Virus record (IMG/VR): IMGVR_UViG_3300030118_002103
Coordinates: 1-37,875 of that record
Length of the DNA stretch: 37,875 bases
Strand: one strand, 5' to 3'
From: a virus
The translations under genes and the position numbers were made by a program. Under the pieces are notes generated by a model. The model was not told where the DNA came from. It saw only the letters and a list, made by a program, of their open reading frames with translations, and made no database searches. Shown piece by piece: positions 7,149 through 31,207 of this stretch; the first letter of the stretch is position 1, and every line of letters begins with the position of its first letter.

Positions 7149-7997
7149 ATGGCTAACAGCTATCAAGAATACACATCTGGTCTTACAGGCACCAGCTTCA
7201 CAGGCTTTAATGTTAAATTCATAAGCCAAGGACACCTTAAAGTTGCTACGTCAACCAACAACGGTAGTAGTTTTACGACAGGATCCCTTACGGTAACAGT
7301 GAACGGAACTACGGCTACCCTTAGTGCCGCTCCAAGCACAGGCAGTGACGGAATTAACAAGATTAGAATCTTTAGAGAGACAGGGACTGATGAACTAGTG
7401 GACTTCCAAAGTGGCTCAAGGATTACCGAAAGTGACTTAGATACCTCATACCGTCACGCTGTCTATGCAGCACAAGAAGTATTAGAGAACGCCCCCGCTA
7501 AAACGCTATCACAACAAGGACCAGCAGGAGCAGATGGAGTAGGAATTACAAGCGTAGCTTCAAGTAAAGTAGGATCCAACACAACAATTACAGTTAAACT
7601 CAGTGACAACACCGATTCTTCTTTTGTTATCTCAGATGGAACAGACGGCTCGCCAGGAACTAACAGTAGTTTTTCTAAGTTTTTTCAAAGCTCTGAAACA
7701 GCAATACCAGCATCTCAAACTAAAGTAGAGCTAGACCACAGCTTGGCAGAAGTTCCTAAGTATTTTCAATGGGTTTTAAGATGTAAAAGCGCAGAGAACG
7801 GATACGCAGTAGGAGACGAAATAGATTTGTCAGCTCAAGGACATTCAGCAGGTAGACTTGGCTTGTATGCAAACGCAACAAAATGTTTCTTTGTTTATGA
7901 TACAAAACTTACCCTTCCAGAAGCAGACGCTAGTAACACTTGGGATGTAACTAACGCAGACACAAACTGGAAGTTAATTTGCAGAGCTTTTGCCTAA
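7149..7997 (+). CDS. Short tail fibre protein with T7 gp17 N-terminal attachment domain
   Basis: The product is 282 residues. The first 115 or so match the T7 gp17 N-terminal domain pattern that docks fibres on the tail: IRIFRETGTDELVDFQSGSR, then SDLDTSYRHAVYAAQEVLEN. A collagen-like GPAGADG and a second Gly-rich turn region (DGTDGSPGTN) follow. A C-terminal beta-rich module of about 110 residues comes last (KYFQWVLRCKSAENGYAVGDEID). T7 gp17 has 553 residues, so this fibre lacks the long shaft and probably serves as a short fibre or adaptor. The 1388-residue LamG protein encoded at 25142 may provide the main host contact. It begins 34 bp after the gp16-like gene; the leader contains TTAGAGAAC but no strong ribosome binding site. 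Confidence 0.9.
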   Translation: MANSYQEYTSGLTGTSFTGFNVKFISQGHLKVATSTNNGSSFTTGSLTVTVNGTTATLSAAPSTGSDGINKIRIFRETGTDELVDFQSGSRITESDLDTSYRHAVYAAQEVLENAPAKTLSQQGPAGADGVGITSVASSKVGSNTTITVKLSDNTDSSFVISDGTDGSPGTNSSFSKFFQSSETAIPASQTKVELDHSLAEVPKYFQWVLRCKSAENGYAVGDEIDLSAQGHSAGRLGLYANATKCFFVYDTKLTLPEADASNTWDVTNADTNWKLICRAFA

Positions 7998-14985: not shown

Positions 14986-16023
14986 ATGCCAACAAGATCA
15001 AATAAAAACAAGTGGATGGCTGATCTTATGCTTGATCGCATACGCTATCGAAAGCAGTTTGATACAGCGGAGGAGGCACAAGCGTTTGAAGCAGAACTCC
15101 GCAAGCGCAACAAGCTAGGGGAGCCGATTGCTGCATTGGTAGAAACAAAGGACAGCAGTCCAACGGCCACCTTTGGTGAGATGTCAGACAAGACGTTCAC
15201 TAGATACTGGGCCAACAGTAAGAACGAAGAGCAATGTATCAGTAACATGAAGATCCTGGAGAAGTTCTTTGGATCGGAGACGCCTATAAAGGACATTACA
15301 GTTCACCGAATAGATGACTTCATAGGTCACCTCCAGTCACTCAACAGGGCACCAGCTACTATCAATCAGAAGCTTGCCACCTTGTCCAAGATCATCCGGT
15401 TTGCTCACGAAAGGGGCTACTTAAAAAACAAGCCAAAGATTGAGCGAGTCACCCAGCCAAGCAACGAACGTCTGGTGTTCTTTGACTACGATCTAGAAGC
15501 GGACATCCTTGGGTATCTATCAGACAACGAGCCAGCGTTTTTTGATTGGTTTGTGTTTGCCATAGACACTGGCATACGCCCCGGAGAGATCCAAGCGTTG
15601 ACCAAGAAGTGTTTCCGAAGGGATCCAGTGCTTGGCCCGGTGGTGGATGTAAGAGAAGTAAAGAACACCTCGGGCACTTCAGAGCAGCGAACGATTCCAC
15701 TGACAGACAGAGCAGTAAGTGCTGTGAGGAGACAGATGCGAGACACTGATTATCCATTTGGAACGTGGACAAGTGACGCACGCCGGATTGTTTGGGACAA
15801 GGTAAGGGAAAACGTAGATATGGATTCTGAATTGGTTCCTTATTGCTGCCGCCACACCACCGCCACCCGCTTGGTGCAACAGGGGGTCAACCTCAAAGCG
15901 GTTCAGAGATGGATGGGTCACAAGACGTTAGAAATGACACTCAAGTATGTGAAGCTAGTCCCCCAGGATCTTATCTTTGGAAAGAACGCTTTGGAGAAAC
16001 CACAGCACGAACGAGTAGCATGA
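14986..16023 (+). CDS. int: Tyrosine site-specific recombinase, phage integrase
   Basis: The product has 345 residues. A SAM-like core-binding domain spans about 62-150 (TFGEMSDKTFTRYWAN to APATINQKLATLSKIIRFAH), followed by the catalytic domain. Catalytic residues visible are Arg198 (DTGIRPGEIQAL), Lys226 (VREVKNTSG), Arg289 in CCRHTTATRL, His312 (WMGHKTLEM) and the nucleophile Tyr321 (TLKYV). The usual His of the HxxR box is Tyr286 here, a known variant. It would insert the phage genome at a host attB. It lies between the amidase and a coiled-coil gene and upstream of the RNA polymerase, the usual place in integrating T7-like marine phages. It is apparently intact. Confidence 0.96.
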   Translation: MPTRSNKNKWMADLMLDRIRYRKQFDTAEEAQAFEAELRKRNKLGEPIAALVETKDSSPTATFGEMSDKTFTRYWANSKNEEQCISNMKILEKFFGSETPIKDITVHRIDDFIGHLQSLNRAPATINQKLATLSKIIRFAHERGYLKNKPKIERVTQPSNERLVFFDYDLEADILGYLSDNEPAFFDWFVFAIDTGIRPGEIQALTKKCFRRDPVLGPVVDVREVKNTSGTSEQRTIPLTDRAVSAVRRQMRDTDYPFGTWTSDARRIVWDKVRENVDMDSELVPYCCRHTTATRLVQQGVNLKAVQRWMGHKTLEMTLKYVKLVPQDLIFGKNALEKPQHERVA

Positions 16024-24399: not shown

Positions 24400-24588
24400 A
24401 TGATAACGAAAAATAAAGACTTCCCCACTGTATCTAAAGTTTTCCTTGAGGCACTACAAGAAAGGTTCCCTCAAAAAGACTTTGATATATCTACCAGCCT
24501 CCGGGAACTAGACTATCATTTTGGCCAAAGGTCTGTGATTAAGTTTCTGGAGTCTGCCTTCCAAGAACAGAACGAGAATATTCTTTAA
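24400..24588 (+). CDS. Small conserved marine-phage protein of unknown function
   Basis: The product has 62 residues. The pattern is a helical N-terminus (SKVFLEALQERFPQKDFDIS), then LRELDYHFGQRSVIKFLESA and an acidic end. A small protein with the FPxK...GQRSVIxFL arrangement precedes the head genes in many T7-like marine phages, from memory. It lies 6 bp after the diphosphohydrolase gene and 5 bp before the poly-proline gene. No catalytic residues or membrane helix are visible. The role is unknown. Confidence 0.72.
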   Translation: MITKNKDFPTVSKVFLEALQERFPQKDFDISTSLRELDYHFGQRSVIKFLESAFQEQNENIL

Positions 24589-24593
24589 ATATC

Positions 24594-24797
24594 ATGTGCA
24601 TGTCCAGACCAAAGGTGGTTCAAGCAGACCCGCCTCCACCACCACCCCCTCCACCTACGGAAGTGGCAGTTCAAAAAAAGCCTAAAAAGAAACAAGCAAA
24701 ACGCCGTGGCTCTGGTATTAGCAGTCTTATTATTAGGAGGCCCACTGTAAATACAGGCAGCACTAGCGGGGGGTCTGGATCTAATATGAATTACTAA
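24594..24797 (+). CDS. Proline-rich small protein, possibly T7 gp7.3-like virion protein
   Basis: The product has 67 residues. It starts MCMSRPKVVQADP, then a run of nine prolines, then a Lys-rich linker, and ends with GSGISSLIIRRPTVNTGSTS and a Gly/Ser/Asn tail. T7 gp7.3, a tail/assembly protein, ends with a similar basic linker, SL.I.R segment and Gly-rich tail. Its position upstream of the portal gene also agrees, although four other genes intervene here. Short proteins with long poly-proline tracts near the head genes are common in marine podophages. Poly-proline translation stalls and needs EF-P. Assignment to gp7.3 is tentative; the reading frame itself is convincing. Confidence 0.65.
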   Translation: MCMSRPKVVQADPPPPPPPPPTEVAVQKKPKKKQAKRRGSGISSLIIRRPTVNTGSTSGGSGSNMNY

Positions 24798-24818
24798 AAC
24801 AGGAAAGAACTATAAATC

Positions 24819-25133
24819 ATGCAATATGGAATATCACAAACGGTGACTGGAAGCACAGGAACAGTAGATCTTAAATGGCACGGAGGCACAGGTTTGTTTT
24901 CGGTTATAGCCAATAATACTTTTGCAGCTACAAAAATAGAGCTGCAACACGATGTTAGTGCTTCGGGTAGTGATGCTAAATTTTTAAGTCTTGGTGTAGA
25001 CGCTGAGTTTACAGATGAAGACCAGGTTGTTTTCACCACAGCAGCTAATTCGCTACGAGTCAAAATTTCAGGTGGATCTTCAGAAACTTATCAAATTCTA
25101 GTAAAGCCAGTAAACGAGCGTAGTGCTTACTAA
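24819..25133 (+). CDS. Small beta-rich protein, possible virion decoration or fibre-associated protein
   Basis: The product has 104 residues with alternating strands and small polar residues (ISQTVTGSTGTVDLKWHGGT, FTTAANSLRVKISGGSSETY), no signal and no charged core. The composition is typical of virion surface or fibre-associated proteins. It lies between the poly-proline gene and the giant LamG adhesin, 8 bp from the latter, which suggests a structural role with it. A glycan-binding or adaptor function is possible, but I do not recognise the family. Confidence 0.68.
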   Translation: MQYGISQTVTGSTGTVDLKWHGGTGLFSVIANNTFAATKIELQHDVSASGSDAKFLSLGVDAEFTDEDQVVFTTAANSLRVKISGGSSETYQILVKPVNERSAY

Positions 25134-25141
25134 TTAATTAA

Positions 25142-28100
25142 ATGTCTCTTACCCGCAAACTTACCAGACCTCTTACAAGACCACTTGTTATTGCTTCAAG
25201 TGAAAATGTTGTTGAGAGCGACAATGTTGTTAAATCTGGCAGCTATAAAAGCTTTACGCCAACCTTCATTGCCGACAAGTCGATGCTGTTTGACGGGACC
25301 GATGACGTTATAACATCAAACGCTGACAATACCTTGGCCACCAAGACCTATTCGTTTTGGATGAAGTCAAGCCACACAACGCATGACGCTCAACAAATGG
25401 TTTTTAGTCACGGCAACGCCAACCGCGGCGCACTTGCTTTTAATTGGTCGTCGGGGCGCATCCTTCTTCTTTTAGATTGGACGTATTATCGGTATTGGCA
25501 GAATTCGCCCTTCCAAGATGACGGACTTTGGCATCACTGGCTGTGTTTTCTGGACCATACGGACATTACTAAGGCGCGATTATTTTGCGATGGAGTAGAA
25601 CAAGAAGTAGAAAGCACTACCACTGCCAGTAGCCCGCAAGCGTATACTACAGGAATAAAAATCGGAGCCGGGGACGCAAGATTTTTTGAGGGCTCTCTAG
25701 ATGAGTTTGCAATTTTTGATGGAGACCAAACAGCACTAGTAGACGCTTTATATAACAACGGACAACCAAATGACCTTAGCGGTTACTCTACGCTCGACCA
25801 CTGGTATCGAATGGGGGAAGGCAAGCTGGGGACTAATAGTGACGGGGACGAGAACCTGCTGTTTGACCAGAGCACAAATGGTGGACTGGGCAGTGAGCTG
25901 GTAAAGACTGACCCGTTTGTCTCGGGAAGTTGGAGCGGCTACTCCGGGAATAATGTCACCTTCCCAAACACGACCACAGTTCGCATAGAGCGCCCAACCT
26001 CTGGCGGCAGCAGTCAAGGTGCGGCAGCGGATTTAAACACAAGCATTTTGCAAAGCACTCCAGCAGCAGGAACAACCCTCAAAATTTCTTTTGACCTGAA
26101 CACGGACGATTCCGACATCTTCGCCCAACTATACAATGGCTCCGCTTATACCAACACCACAGCGGGCAGCGGAAGCAAAACGGTCTTTTTGACAATGACG
26201 GGAACCGGATTCATCCGCTTTGGCGGGTTAGATGCCGACAAGTTTGTAGAGCTGACCAATTTTACTGTCAAAGAGGTCCAGAACGTGGGCACCATCAGTG
26301 GCGCAGCGATTCAAGCGGACGGCGGCACGGAGCTGGTTACTAATGGGACGTTTGATACGGACTCTAACTGGACTACCGGTTCTGGCTTCACAATATCAGG
26401 AGGAAAAGCCACGCGAGTTATTGGGCAAAATAGCGACCTTAGCCAGACCCTTAGCGCACCATTAGTTACTGGGGCACAGTATAAGATTTCTTTCAATGCC
26501 GAGGACACTTCAGGAAATACAACTTTTGCAGTACGGTTAAAAACTCCGGGTGAAGTTGAGAGTTCGTTTGAAACACGGGGCGCTGACAATGAAATTTTTC
26601 TGACGGCTTCAAATGCTCACACTGTTATAGATATAAGACCCGGCGGTTCTGCCACTGGTGGAGCTATAGACAACATCTCCGTCAAAGAGGTCACCGAAAG
26701 CGTCCCCAAGCAGGTCCAGAATCTGCCCAGCGGAGCGAGCAAGAAGAGCCTGTCTTTTGATGGGACAGATGATTTCGCAAAAATTCCTTATCAACTTCCT
26801 GCAACCACGTTTACTGTTAGCCAGTGGATAAAAGTTAACGAGGACAGCTCTTCAAGTACGGCGGTTTATATTTGGGATGCAAGAGACCTTACGTATTCGG
26901 TAGCCAACATTTTCTTGCCCGTAAAAGTCTCTACCACAGAATACAAGTTGCGTTGGTGGAATTCAGGACAGTACCGCATAGACGATTCGACCACTTACCC
27001 GATTGGTCTCTGGCAGCACGTTGTTTTAGTAAAAGACGGCAGCACTGGCACTATGTATGTCGATGGAGAGCGCCTAGCTTCCGCAACTACATTCAGCAAC
27101 CCTACCAACACCCCAGAGATAACTGTGGCTCGGCGCTACCATGCCCCGTTAAATTTTGGAGAGGTAGACATAGACGAGCTAGCTATCTGGGACACCGCAC
27201 TGGATGGGGACTCCGTGAAGGCCCTATACAACGCAGGGTTGCCCACGCCTGTTACCACAAATACTGGGGCCTACGACATCTACAAGGACAACCTCCAGGC
27301 GTATTACAAGATGGGGGACGCATCGGACCCTGCGGCAGACGGGGAACAGAATCTTTTATTTGACCAGAGCACGAATGGTGGAGTCGGAAGTGAGCTAATT
27401 AGTAACACAGATTTCTCGACTGCCTCTGGTTGGAATCTTGACAGCAACGCGAGTATTAGTGGCGGCAAGTTAGTCTTAACCGGCTCAAGCGGGATCAGTT
27501 ACGTTACGTTGGACCTAGATGACGGACACGCTTACGAGGTCAGCTTTACTGTTGAAAACCTTACGTCAGGAACCGTTAAGCCATACCTAAATGGCACCAA
27601 TGGAACGGTGCGGAGTGCTAACGGCACCTACACCGAAATTGTTCTCGCAGGTTCCGCCAACACGATTGTCGGCGTTAACCCATCAGGCACGATGGAGATA
27701 GATAATTTCTCCTTGAAGAAGATTCAGAACGCGGGCACCATCACCGGAGCCACTATCCAGACAGAGGCACCCAAGGCTATCTATGCGCTTGCTCCAGTTG
27801 ACAACAAGTTCTCACTAAACTTTGACGGGACGAATGACCACTTGGTGACCCAGGTGGACGCAACAGCTCAACCAAACAACGAGTCGAGATATTATAGCTT
27901 TTGGGCAAAGGCCTCAAATACTGGTGCTTCAGCAAGAATGCCAATCTTCTCTCACGGAAATGGAACAACCGGCGCATTCTTTTTCCACTTTTCTTCAAGT
28001 CAACCCAAGTTGTTCATGGCAACTAATGTCAGTCAAAATTGGGTTGATAACTCGGCTCAAGACGATGGTGAATGGCATCATTGGACGGTTAAAATAAAAT

Positions 28101-29308
28101 ACAATGACATAACCGGATGCGAGCTTTGGTGTGATGGAGTGAAGCAAACAAAAGGAACCACTACTAATTCCGGCAGTATGAACACTTACAGTTCAGGAAT
28201 TACTTTGGGGTCAACTTTAGCTTCTGGGCATTACTTTAATGGAAGCATCGACGAATTCTCCATCCATGAGGACCTAGATGATGAAGCCATTCGTGCGCTC
28301 TTCAACAGAGGACGCCCCATAGACATTTCTAGAAATCACGGCGCATACGATTTGAGTGACAAGGCGCTGCACTGGTGGCGCATGGGAGACGCACCGGGAG
28401 GTCAGATAGGGCACAGCGGGGATGTGTTGTTTCAGGGTTTTAGTGAAGAAGGAAGCGAGCTAATTATCAACGGTGACTTTTCTTCTGGAGATTCAGACTG
28501 GACCAAGGGGACCGGGTGGAGCATTGCTAATGGAGTTGCTAGCTGCGATGGAAGCAACAGTAGCCAGAGCACAATAAAGACGGAATTAGTAGTCCCGAAT
28601 GGTCAAAACAATGTGCTCTACGGTAAGACCTTTCAGCTCCAGTTTGACATACTGAACTATAGCGCGGGCACGTTAGCTGCTACCTTAGAGGGAACGGGTG
28701 GGCTTGAACTTCAAGGTCTTAACTCTAATGGCAGCTATACCGCGTTTTGCACCACGACAAGCACCAATCCGCGTCTAAATTTCAATGCCAGCGCAGGATT
28801 CATTGGCTCAATCGACAACGTGTCTCTTAAGCAAGTTCGTGGTCAATACATCGGGCCAGATCTGATTACTAACGGTGACTACGAGACGGGAGACCTGACA
28901 GGGTGGACAGTAGACAATGCCGGCGGGCAAACAGTAGAGGTTGCAAAGAATAGCTTAGGCTCTAACGCGCTGCATATTGTGAGTGATGGCACATTTGCCC
29001 AGGCGACTCAGACAATCACTTCATTAGCCGCCGGAACAGTTGCGCAACTTAGCTTTGATTATGAAAATTTACGGGTCGGCGGCCCGCAAGCAGTCGTTAA
29101 TGGAGTTATTTCCAGTGTCACTTTTGCTCCGGGTTCGGGAAGATATACACAATATTTTGTCTCAGACGGCAGTGACACTATTGCGATCAAAAGAAATGGG
29201 GCGCCCGAATTTTTCGTAGACAACGTCAGCGTCCGCGAGATCGGAGGCGCAGCAGTCATGACCAATATGGACCCAAATACAGACCTTCAAACAGATACCC
29301 CTTATTAA
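25142..29308 (+). CDS. Giant LamG-repeat adhesin / tail fibre-like protein
   Basis: The product has 1388 residues. Three LamG-type (concanavalin-like) modules start near residues 49, 537 and 891, each with a FDGT(D/N)D opening and an ending like VDIDELAIWDTALDGDSVKA. Between and after them are jelly-roll-like modules that begin GSELI.NGDFS or GPDLITNGDYETGDLTGWTV and end with a D(N/D)(V/I)S(V/L)K(E/K/Q) strand. The chain ends VMTNMDPNTDLQTDTPY. Such architecture binds sugars, so this should be a receptor-binding or surface-adhesion virion protein. It lies between replication and portal genes, far from the gp17-like fibre. The Arg-rich N-terminus (RKLTRPLTRPL) has no gp17 attachment domain, so how it joins the virion is unknown. 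Internal DNA repeats and a less A-rich composition than the gp15/gp16 genes suggest module duplication and transfer. Confidence 0.88.
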   Translation: MSLTRKLTRPLTRPLVIASSENVVESDNVVKSGSYKSFTPTFIADKSMLFDGTDDVITSNADNTLATKTYSFWMKSSHTTHDAQQMVFSHGNANRGALAFNWSSGRILLLLDWTYYRYWQNSPFQDDGLWHHWLCFLDHTDITKARLFCDGVEQEVESTTTASSPQAYTTGIKIGAGDARFFEGSLDEFAIFDGDQTALVDALYNNGQPNDLSGYSTLDHWYRMGEGKLGTNSDGDENLLFDQSTNGGLGSELVKTDPFVSGSWSGYSGNNVTFPNTTTVRIERPTSGGSSQGAAADLNTSILQSTPAAGTTLKISFDLNTDDSDIFAQLYNGSAYTNTTAGSGSKTVFLTMTGTGFIRFGGLDADKFVELTNFTVKEVQNVGTISGAAIQADGGTELVTNGTFDTDSNWTTGSGFTISGGKATRVIGQNSDLSQTLSAPLVTGAQYKISFNAEDTSGNTTFAVRLKTPGEVESSFETRGADNEIFLTASNAHTVIDIRPGGSATGGAIDNISVKEVTESVPKQVQNLPSGASKKSLSFDGTDDFAKIPYQLPATTFTVSQWIKVNEDSSSSTAVYIWDARDLTYSVANIFLPVKVSTTEYKLRWWNSGQYRIDDSTTYPIGLWQHVVLVKDGSTGTMYVDGERLASATTFSNPTNTPEITVARRYHAPLNFGEVDIDELAIWDTALDGDSVKALYNAGLPTPVTTNTGAYDIYKDNLQAYYKMGDASDPAADGEQNLLFDQSTNGGVGSELISNTDFSTASGWNLDSNASISGGKLVLTGSSGISYVTLDLDDGHAYEVSFTVENLTSGTVKPYLNGTNGTVRSANGTYTEIVLAGSANTIVGVNPSGTMEIDNFSLKKIQNAGTITGATIQTEAPKAIYALAPVDNKFSLNFDGTNDHLVTQVDATAQPNNESRYYSFWAKASNTGASARMPIFSHGNGTTGAFFFHFSSSQPKLFMATNVSQNWVDNSAQDDGEWHHWTVKIKYNDITGCELWCDGVKQTKGTTTNSGSMNTYSSGITLGSTLASGHYFNGSIDEFSIHEDLDDEAIRALFNRGRPIDISRNHGAYDLSDKALHWWRMGDAPGGQIGHSGDVLFQGFSEEGSELIINGDFSSGDSDWTKGTGWSIANGVASCDGSNSSQSTIKTELVVPNGQNNVLYGKTFQLQFDILNYSAGTLAATLEGTGGLELQGLNSNGSYTAFCTTTSTNPRLNFNASAGFIGSIDNVSLKQVRGQYIGPDLITNGDYETGDLTGWTVDNAGGQTVEVAKNSLGSNALHIVSDGTFAQATQTITSLAAGTVAQLSFDYENLRVGGPQAVVNGVISSVTFAPGSGRYTQYFVSDGSDTIAIKRNGAPEFFVDNVSVREIGGAAVMTNMDPNTDLQTDTPY
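25862..25900 (+). repeat. Internal direct repeat of the adhesin gene, copy 1
   Basis: This copy encodes LFDQSTNGGLGSEL. It matches 27359-27397 with a few mismatches; the first 24 bases have one difference. Both copies sit at the boundary between a LamG module and a jelly-roll-like module. High DNA identity suggests recent module duplication or gene conversion. Confidence 0.8.
27359..27397 (+). repeat. Internal direct repeat of the adhesin gene, copy 2
   Basis: Second copy of the 25862-25900 repeat (encodes FDQSTNGGVGSEL). A further pair, CAGAACGTGGGCACCATCAG near 26279 and CAGAACGCGGGCACCATCAC near 27724, marks the other side of the modules. Confidence 0.8.
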
Positions 29309-29313
29309 TAACC

Positions 29314-29637
29314 ATGAGCAATTACGCTAATAGAAAATGGGTTATAATGACCCTTGCAGACATTGACGCCGGTGACATTACCGAAGAGCAGGTGGTCATC
29401 GACGAAGAGACCGGAGAAGAGACTACGGAGCAAGTGGTTGTCGGTAATATCTATATCGACAATGCTATTGAAAGCTCCAAGGCTACCCTCCGACTATCGG
29501 TAGATGGAACTAAGACCATCCTCAAGTGGGATAACGAGACACCAGAGCCATTTGCAGGAATGTCTACGTTTTCCCATCAGGAAATCCTTGAAGAGCTTTC
29601 TGGTGCCGATTGGACCTCTCAGGAAGACACTCCATAA
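29314..29637 (+). CDS. Small acidic protein following the adhesin, function unknown
   Basis: The product has 107 residues, starting 5 bp after the adhesin stop. The first part is acidic with an internal duplication-like pattern (ITEEQVVIDEETGEETTEQV). The second half (ATLRLSVDGTKTILKWDNET and FSHQEILEELSGADWTSQE) resembles, from memory, a small protein that often follows LamG fibres in marine phages. It could be a fibre chaperone, adaptor or accessory virion protein. There is no signal or membrane helix. The tight link to the adhesin is the main clue to its job. Confidence 0.65.
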   Translation: MSNYANRKWVIMTLADIDAGDITEEQVVIDEETGEETTEQVVVGNIYIDNAIESSKATLRLSVDGTKTILKWDNETPEPFAGMSTFSHQEILEELSGADWTSQEDTP

Positions 29638-29650
29638 TAATTAATAACCA

Positions 29651-31207
29651 ATGCACACAGGAACCGCTAAAAGCCTATATACCTCTCTTGAAGGGAGCAG
29701 GGAGCAATACCTGGACAGGGCAAGACAAGCTTCAAAGCTGACACTTCCCTACATTATGCCAGATGCTGGCTTTGGCGCATCCTCAAGATTGGACACACCG
29801 TTTCAGGGTGTTGGGGCTAGAGGAGTAAATAACCTCGCCTCAAAATTACTGTTAGCACTCCTACCACCCAACGCCCCTTTCTTCAGGCTAAACGTAGATA
29901 CTTACGGATTGCAGCAAGAAGGAGCACCAGAGGAGGTAATCAGTCAAGTTGAGCAAGCTCTTCAGAAAGTTGAAGAGGCAACAATGGATGAGATCAGCAG
30001 GGAAACCTACAGGACTGGTCTGCACGAAGCACTAAAGCATCTCATTGTTACAGGAAACTCCCTTGTGTATCTTCCAGATTCTGGAGGTATGCGTGTGTTT
30101 CATTTGGATCGTTATGTGGTTCAAAGGGACTCAATGGGCAATGTTATCTACATAGCGACAAAGGAAAGCATGAGCTACGCAGCTCTCGATGACAACATGA
30201 AGGCTGTTGTTGATGTAGATGCAAAAGATCCTATGGCAGAGGTAGACCTATATACTGCTGTCTGTCGCAAAGAAAACAAATGGCATGTCTTCCAAGACAT
30301 CAATGGCAATCCCGTCGAAGGTTCTGAAGGAAATTACCCACTAGATCAAAACCCCTTTATACCTTTGCGGTTCAGCAGAATTGATGGAGAAGACTACGGC
30401 AGAGGATACGTTGAGGAATACCTCGGGGACCTCCAATCTCTTGAAAGTCTTACAAGAGCGATTGTTGAGGGCTCGGCTGCTGCCGCAAAGGTTTTATTTC
30501 TTGTGAATCCAAACGGAACTACAAGAGCCAGGACGTTGGCTGAAAGTCCTAACGGGACCATTACTCAAGGTAATGCAGCGGACGTTTCTGTTCTCCAACT
30601 AAACAAGTTTAACGATTTCAGGGTGGCTCAAGAGACTATTGCTGCCATCAAAGATCGCCTCGGGCACAGCTTCTTGCTTACCAGTGGTGTTGTAAGGAAT
30701 GCAGAGAGGGTTACAGCAGAAGAGATAAGGATGCTTAGTATGGAACTTGAGAGTTCTCTTGGTGGTCTTTACTCACTTCTATCTACTGAACTTCAGCTTC
30801 CACTTGTGAACAGATTGCTTGCCAGCCTGACAAAGAAAAAGAGGCTACCCAAACTACCAAAGGACATTGCCACTCCTGTGATTATTACTGGTGTTGAAGC
30901 ACTAGGCAGAGGTAACGACCTCCAGAAACTTGACTTGTTCCTTGCTGGGGCAGCTCAAGTAGTAGGACCACAAGCTGTTTCTCAGTATGTCAATGTAGGT
31001 GAATACTTCAATAGAAGAGCCACCGCATTAGGTATCAAGACAGCAGCTTTAATCAAATCACAACAAGAACTCCAAATGGAGATGCAGATGGCGCAACAAG
31101 CCCAGCAAGAGCAAATGCTTGCAAAGATGGGACCAGCGGCTATCAAAGCAGTATCTGACAACACAATAGAAGAGCAGAGAAACCAACAACAACAACCTGA
31201 GGAATAA
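29651..31207 (+). CDS. Portal (head-tail connector) protein, T7 gp8-like
   Basis: The product has 518 residues (T7 gp8 has 536). Recognisable T7-type pieces are an N-terminal SREQYLDRARQASKLTLPYI, GARGVNNLASKLLLALLPPN, VTGNSLVYLPDSGGMRVFHL, and HSFLLTSGVVRNAERVTAEE. Downstream lies a helical crown region, and the C-terminus is Gln-rich. Twelve copies form the ring through which DNA enters the head and to which tail and core attach. It is followed 5 bp later by the scaffold gene, the standard T7 order. The leader TTAATAACCAATG lacks a Shine-Dalgarno sequence. Confidence 0.94.
   Translation: MHTGTAKSLYTSLEGSREQYLDRARQASKLTLPYIMPDAGFGASSRLDTPFQGVGARGVNNLASKLLLALLPPNAPFFRLNVDTYGLQQEGAPEEVISQVEQALQKVEEATMDEISRETYRTGLHEALKHLIVTGNSLVYLPDSGGMRVFHLDRYVVQRDSMGNVIYIATKESMSYAALDDNMKAVVDVDAKDPMAEVDLYTAVCRKENKWHVFQDINGNPVEGSEGNYPLDQNPFIPLRFSRIDGEDYGRGYVEEYLGDLQSLESLTRAIVEGSAAAAKVLFLVNPNGTTRARTLAESPNGTITQGNAADVSVLQLNKFNDFRVAQETIAAIKDRLGHSFLLTSGVVRNAERVTAEEIRMLSMELESSLGGLYSLLSTELQLPLVNRLLASLTKKKRLPKLPKDIATPVIITGVEALGRGNDLQKLDLFLAGAAQVVGPQAVSQYVNVGEYFNRRATALGIKTAALIKSQQELQMEMQMAQQAQQEQMLAKMGPAAIKAVSDNTIEEQRNQQQQPEE

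Follow-up and report, generated by a model that had tools for sequence, protein, structure and literature searches.

The window analysed here is the whole 37,875-nucleotide stretch of viral DNA in IMG/VR record IMGVR_UViG_3300030118_002103, the genome of an integrase-bearing marine T7-like virus (autographivirus), and the subject of this work is its gene at positions 25142-29308 (+ strand), which encodes a LamG/jelly-roll adhesin of 1388 amino acids (aa). We propose that this protein serves as the fibre in a virion spike comparable in function to the head spike of the Rhodobacter capsulatus gene transfer agent (RcGTA), mounted on the 104-aa product of the upstream gene (b104; 24819-25133, +) and assisted by the 107-aa product of the downstream gene (s107; 29314-29637, +), an explanation towards which we lean with moderate confidence from sequence and family comparison. 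The RcGTA head spike consists of a base pentamer, Rcc01079, and a fibre, Rcc01080 (PDB 6tb9); the fibres attach to the pentameric jelly-roll base by an N-terminal leucine repeat, and both its head-spike fibres and its tail fibres bind to capsule (PMC10218006). In the proposed mechanism, b104 would supply a base of jelly-roll fold whose copies assemble, probably into a pentamer at the capsid vertices, and the first ~15-20 residues of the adhesin, a leucine repeat, would insert into hydrophobic pockets of this base. The LamG and jelly-roll modules would point outward and bind surface sugars, a first contact that would precede commitment of the particle by the short gp17-like fibre and the nozzle. 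The s107 protein would aid folding of the LamG body, probably at its C-terminus, and body and partner would be swapped as a cassette, also with unrelated phages, anchor and base staying with the phage type.

The adhesin, its anchor peptide and its proposed base

The adhesin is encoded by a single open reading frame (ORF) starting with ATG, as the sequence-only reading had stated, and we consider it a real gene because the ratio of nonsynonymous to synonymous substitution rates (dN/dS) is ~0.3 against one relative and full-length homologues are present on other contigs. Its architecture was established from profile matches. Pfam Laminin_G_3 matches three stretches, the best being residues 540-692 (E 5e-38), and the adhesin's score of 131 bits against the curated cut-off of 27.6 places it among LamG proteins; Laminin_G_2 also matches, phmmer returned a concanavalin-like S-layer protein, and one weak match only was obtained among named-phage proteins. 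Five related modules of ~120-135 aa lie between or after the LamG domains, giving the order L-J-J-L-J-L-J-J, i.e., LamG domain 1 (25277-25756, approximate, bounds by motif), jelly-roll-like J1 (25886-26281, residues ~249-380) and J2 (26321-26704, ~394-521), LamG domain 2 (26759-27217, residues 540-692), J3 (27383-27733, ~748-864), LamG domain 3 (27812-28276, approximate, bounds by motif), J4 (28451-28846, ~1104-1235), and J5 (28850-29248, ~1237-1369), all on the + strand. The sequence-only reading had three LamG modules alternating with jelly-roll-like ones; the three LamG modules stand, but the jelly-roll-like modules number five, not three, and the alternation is not strict. The J modules were labelled carbohydrate-binding module (CBM)/jelly-roll from weak matches (best, CBM_4_9, E 0.035), and a PDB profile search with all five gave no match. 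The Phage_T7_tail N-terminal domain was found in the ORF at 7149-7997 (+) only (residues 2-148, E 3e-10), an ordinary gp17-like tail fibre that at 282 aa is indeed very short; it is absent from the adhesin, which by this test is not a gp17-type fibre.

The absence of a gp17 attachment domain had been noted before, and the protein's route to the particle had been left unexplained; what had been overlooked is a leucine-repeat anchor, the putative base gene directly upstream and the partner gene downstream. The adhesin begins with the peptide MSLTRKLTRPLTRPL (25142-25186, +), in which Leu recurs at positions 3, 7, 11, and 15 and which is joined to different bodies elsewhere. These four positions are hydrophobic in 11/11 representatives, of which position 15 is the independent part, the representatives having been chosen by the LTR pattern. 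In the species group to which the window belongs, the N-terminal ~45 adhesin residues are constant (75-90% identity) and the LamG1 domain just behind them is replaceable; querying the PDB with 45-49 residues from the N-terminus gave no match. A DNA-pattern search of 2.9 million viral contigs for LTRxLTRxLTR starts yielded 33 matches, 30 of them with a b104-family gene directly upstream, and of the other three, two are not credible genes. In the reverse direction, an ORF with an LTxxLT start comes next in all 28 distinct b104-family genes whose next gene is readable, and the coupling of anchor to base is established by this synteny. The last of the three LTRx starts without b104 upstream, MSLTRDLTRDLTRPLTRDLT, is made of LTRx units with leucines at 3, 7, 11, 15, and 19 and lies at 778-1047 of a different phage, L262 (42.5 kb), whose portal does not match that of the window.

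The b104 product is a predicted jelly-roll-type beta-sandwich. Its AlphaFold2 (AF2) model is an eight-stranded sandwich with a predicted local distance difference test score (pLDDT) of 73, and Foldseek gave weak matches to nucleoplasmin, to virus protrusions (jelly-roll proteins) and to ~100-aa phage proteins. Its homology to proteins of L207 and of uncultured phage MedDCM-OCT-S45-C18 (Ayaqvirus; hereafter S45-C18), the nearest named phage with 66% portal identity, is backed by profile comparison (99% and 96%, respectively). Sequence searches of the PDB with b104 and with the other small-base family gave no match.

Head spike or tail fibre

The link to head spikes runs through sister phages. 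One anchor and base carries LamG bodies in the window, L081 and L192, and GTA_spike_fiber bodies instead in L224, L235, L241 and S45-C18 (P0001). The matches of sister bodies to NF048003, 'phage head spike fiber', have E 2e-56, 2e-41, 1e-36, and 3e-42, and the L224 body matches the RcGTA head-spike fibre Rcc01080 itself (E 2e-16). A third body type (AFSLRKL...) is suggested on the same anchor in L259 and L243, where the contigs end. LamG bodies elsewhere start with MGLGLGLGL, MHLGLGN or MLALANKLSL, each behind another gene of ~86-105 aa, and the GTA-spike bodies of L063 and L072 start with MQIGLGLSI and MSIGLGIGV. All four combinations of anchor and body were found, each with a small gene upstream: LTRx with LamG (window), LTRx with GTA_spike (L224), LGLG with LamG (L026, L036), and LGLG with GTA_spike (L063, L072), which argues for one function of both peptide types. 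By profile comparison, the small genes that precede LamG in unrelated phages show no sequence relation to b104, and therefore a base role there is assigned by position only.

Like the RcGTA head spike, the window has a small gene beside the proposed fibre gene, the product of which is predicted to be of jelly-roll type (a beta-sandwich in AF2) but for which no homology to Rcc01079 was found; the fibre has a leucine-repeat N-terminus and a putatively sugar-binding body, the bodies of sister phages being homologous to Rcc01080. Several features set the window apart or weigh against the likeness. The window virus is a T7-like phage; its adhesin has a LamG body in which GTA_spike_fiber (NF048003) is absent; its anchor leucines are spaced by 4, those of RcGTA by 2 (Ile/Leu at 2, 4, 6, 8, and 10); an extra cognate partner gene is present; no sequence relation of b104 to the RcGTA base Rcc01079 was detectable; and the PDB Foldseek matches of b104 are weak and non-specific (best E 3.6e-3, template modelling score ~0.5). 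In addition, the adhesin gene adjoins the portal and gp6.7-like genes rather than capsid genes, and phrog_5939, which matches a sister body, is labelled 'tail protein'. We suggest that the window fibre may work like a head spike without being filed as a member of NF048003.

The last-named match belongs to the main rival explanation, namely that the adhesin is a second receptor-binding protein carried on the tail: its short N-terminal peptide would be held either by the gp17-like fibre or by a tail adaptor, a role that b104 would play, in the manner of SP6, K1-5 and KP34-type phages. Receptor-binding proteins of Autographiviridae, likewise without a gp17 anchor, attach to the adaptor or to the first receptor-binding protein by N-terminal peptides of 7 or 11 residues (PMC6872550), and the window phage, itself an autographivirus, has a short gp17. 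Those proteins are depolymerase tailspikes on a tail adaptor, and their peptide has no coupled jelly-roll base gene. Among the proteins scanned, in a search that was not exhaustive, neither a T4gp10-like nor a gp37-like adaptor turned up; b104 resembles the small jelly-roll class; and what the sister bodies match is the head-spike fibre of RcGTA, not a tail protein of established location. We regard tail attachment as rather unlikely. Docking on gp11/gp12, which the sequence-only reading had brought into play, is also unlikely, since comparison across the family favours a small base protein of the RcGTA head-spike type, and a capsid site appears more likely than a tail site.

Other large genes were seen in the sister and LamG-bearing phages. 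Behind the GTA-spike-type fibre of L073 (AP013544; 16619-19312), L224, L235, L238 and L241 lies a second large gene (MALNLSTLT...SATSGDVL) of 844-1256 aa where complete, with a BspA-type LRR_5 match in S45-C18 and accompanied by one or two further small partner genes. The LamG adhesins of L026 (4312-11511) and L036 (1171-8451), with the MGLGLGLGL start, reach ~2,400 aa, and L026 additionally encodes a GroEL-like gene.

The downstream partner and exchange of the cassette

The s107 family numbers 58 members seen, nearly all directly beside a LamG gene, with a Laminin_G_3 match in 19 of 21 sampled neighbours. The pairing holds in unrelated phages such as Synechococcus phage S-SKS1 and Flavobacterium phage immuto, and in the latter two LamG proteins, encoded 2 and 3 genes upstream of the s107 homologue, are annotated as 'structural protein' (annotation only). 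A clear exception is an s107-family gene without an adjoining LamG gene in a 316-kb phage (L177, 7944-8189). Co-segregation is complete in the slots compared: s107 accompanies the LamG cassette in 16/16 slots, bodies of the 'AYSLR' type pair with a different small family (76-85 aa), and the two cassette types were never mixed in this set, S45-C18 presenting a third arrangement. The gene is under strong purifying selection (dN/dS ~0.1). Its AF2 model is fair (pLDDT 84) and Foldseek against the PDB gave no meaningful fold match; Pfam gave no match, phrog_10018 (E 0.015) was the only hit, and no likeness in sequence or fold to known tail-fibre chaperones (Tfa, gp38, or gp27 of Alteromonas phage V22) emerged from the searches run. 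Like a chaperone gene, s107 lies directly downstream of the adhesin and is specific to it, and it is probably a folding partner of the LamG body because it is a small, body-specific, adjacent gene, as in the V22 pair gp26/gp27 (PMC7289586).

Exchange of the cassette between unrelated phages is shown at the sequence level by LamG DNA matches, by a block that ends at the s107 stop and by a genome, that of L161, which is otherwise mostly different. Between the window and L081, the synonymous divergence (dS) is 0.30 for the portal, 0.93 for s107 and 1.68 for LamG; the clearest contrast is LamG itself, since genes upstream of the slot already reach dS 0.5-0.9. The window's LamG DNA is 78% identical over 1159 bp to that of the unrelated phage L161 and 85% over 618 bp to that of the unrelated phage L002, and LamG plus partner of T7-like and unrelated phages share 75-85% DNA identity. 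The conserved exchange block (29238-29637, +; 75-89% DNA identity to other phages) comprises the adhesin C-terminus (GGAAVMTNM...DTPY) and s107, and in unrelated phages it ends exactly at the s107 stop. L161, a phage of 61 kb, has protein identities to the window of 55% for LamG and 85% for s107 and no head, portal or RNA polymerase gene in common with it; beyond these two genes they share only an amidase, a small gene of peptidase-like type and, weakly, a DNA polymerase. The C-terminal MTNM...DTPY segment was also considered as a sorting tag, a reading set aside in favour of the exchanged block; it would form the last strand of the LamG linker and belong to that block.

A precedent for such exchange is the common fibre and chaperone of the Alteromonas phages A5/V22 (PMC10579305), in which, as here, adhesin and downstream partner are exchanged among distantly related marine phages (PMC10579305, PMC7289586); the Alteromonas tail fibres are trimeric and beta-helical and come with a chaperone of DUF4376 type, and neither LamG nor a base gene is involved. 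Marine-phage metaviromic islands are similar in that host-recognition genes (carbohydrate-binding, lectin-like) diverge while their neighbours stay alike (PMC3909814), but they were described as recruitment gaps, without the anchor-base-partner anatomy. The earlier suggestion that host recognition may depend on the adhesin is well supported, indirectly, by the hypervariable slot, the carbohydrate-binding folds, the allele exchange and the cognate partner gene. A virion adhesin could instead target something other than the host receptor, be it a glycan in the environment, a particle or a different organism, in the manner of mucus adherence, given that LamG and CBM-like folds bind sugars generally and that gene transfer by RcGTA does not strictly require head spikes (PMC10218006); we think this improbable, as a cassette common to unrelated phages with strong allelic divergence fits adaptation to host surface variants.

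Genomic setting and significance

The contig ends (1-100 and 37776-37875) overlap by 100 bases, 99 of them identical, and the contig therefore closes as a circle of ~37.8 kb and probably represents the complete genome, with the junction inside a gp14-like gene. The adhesin gene lies, as had been reported, between replication genes and the portal, inside a tight co-directional run (24400-31207, gaps of 5-22 bp) that begins after exonuclease and dGTPase-like genes. The slot opens with a conserved 62-aa gene (24400-24588, +; phrog_4970, E 1.5e-10), its order being the same across relatives, followed by a constant neighbour encoding a 67-aa proline-rich protein with the start MCMS.PK (24594-24797, +), a candidate gp6.7-like virion core protein judged from its position, its N-terminus and a weak match (phrog_831, E 6e-4). 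Its right border is the portal gene (29651-31207, +; phrog_449, E 5e-180). Among relatives collected via the portal, the interval from the gp6.7-like gene to the portal is a fixed slot occupied by a large adhesin or two and, in most cases, by one or two small genes adjoining the portal, and it can be regarded as virion-gene territory because T7 gp6.7 and gp7.3 are virion proteins (PMC11784390). A scan for short promoters and terminators gave signals at or below chance. The tyrosine integrase gene (14986-16023; phrog_1, E 3e-49) makes a lysogenic state plausible, but a host-expressed surface adhesin or lysogenic-conversion factor outside the virion is very improbable, as inspection by eye shows no signal peptide, the gene runs co-directionally with the portal and no terminator on the + strand was found in between, adhesins fill the slot in all sister phages examined, and a pattern scan for s107 in 84,980 bacterial and archaeal genomes gave one match, on a virus-like contig (a narrow pattern and weak evidence).

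LamG fibres of such layout were not found in our searches of the open-access literature, which is not proof of novelty. The analysis turns an adhesin annotated as hypothetical into a defined three-gene device (base, fibre and partner) with a short transferable anchor peptide, so that attachment to the virion, capsid-first adsorption and the path by which host range is exchanged become open to direct testing. A search signature also follows from it, namely a small jelly-roll gene whose next gene has a leucine-repeat start of LTRx or LGLG type, by which hidden head-spike fibres may be recognised in uncultured phages. The head-spike reading, if true, would account both for delivery of the adhesin to the particle and for changes in host range. 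More tentatively, and with somewhat less than even confidence, marine integrase-bearing T7-like phages may carry interchangeable head spikes on a constant jelly-roll base and leucine-repeat anchor, with several unrelated receptor-binding bodies, each accompanied by its own folding partner, being swapped also with unrelated phages from the same waters, so that host range would be set largely by the capsid and not by the tail.

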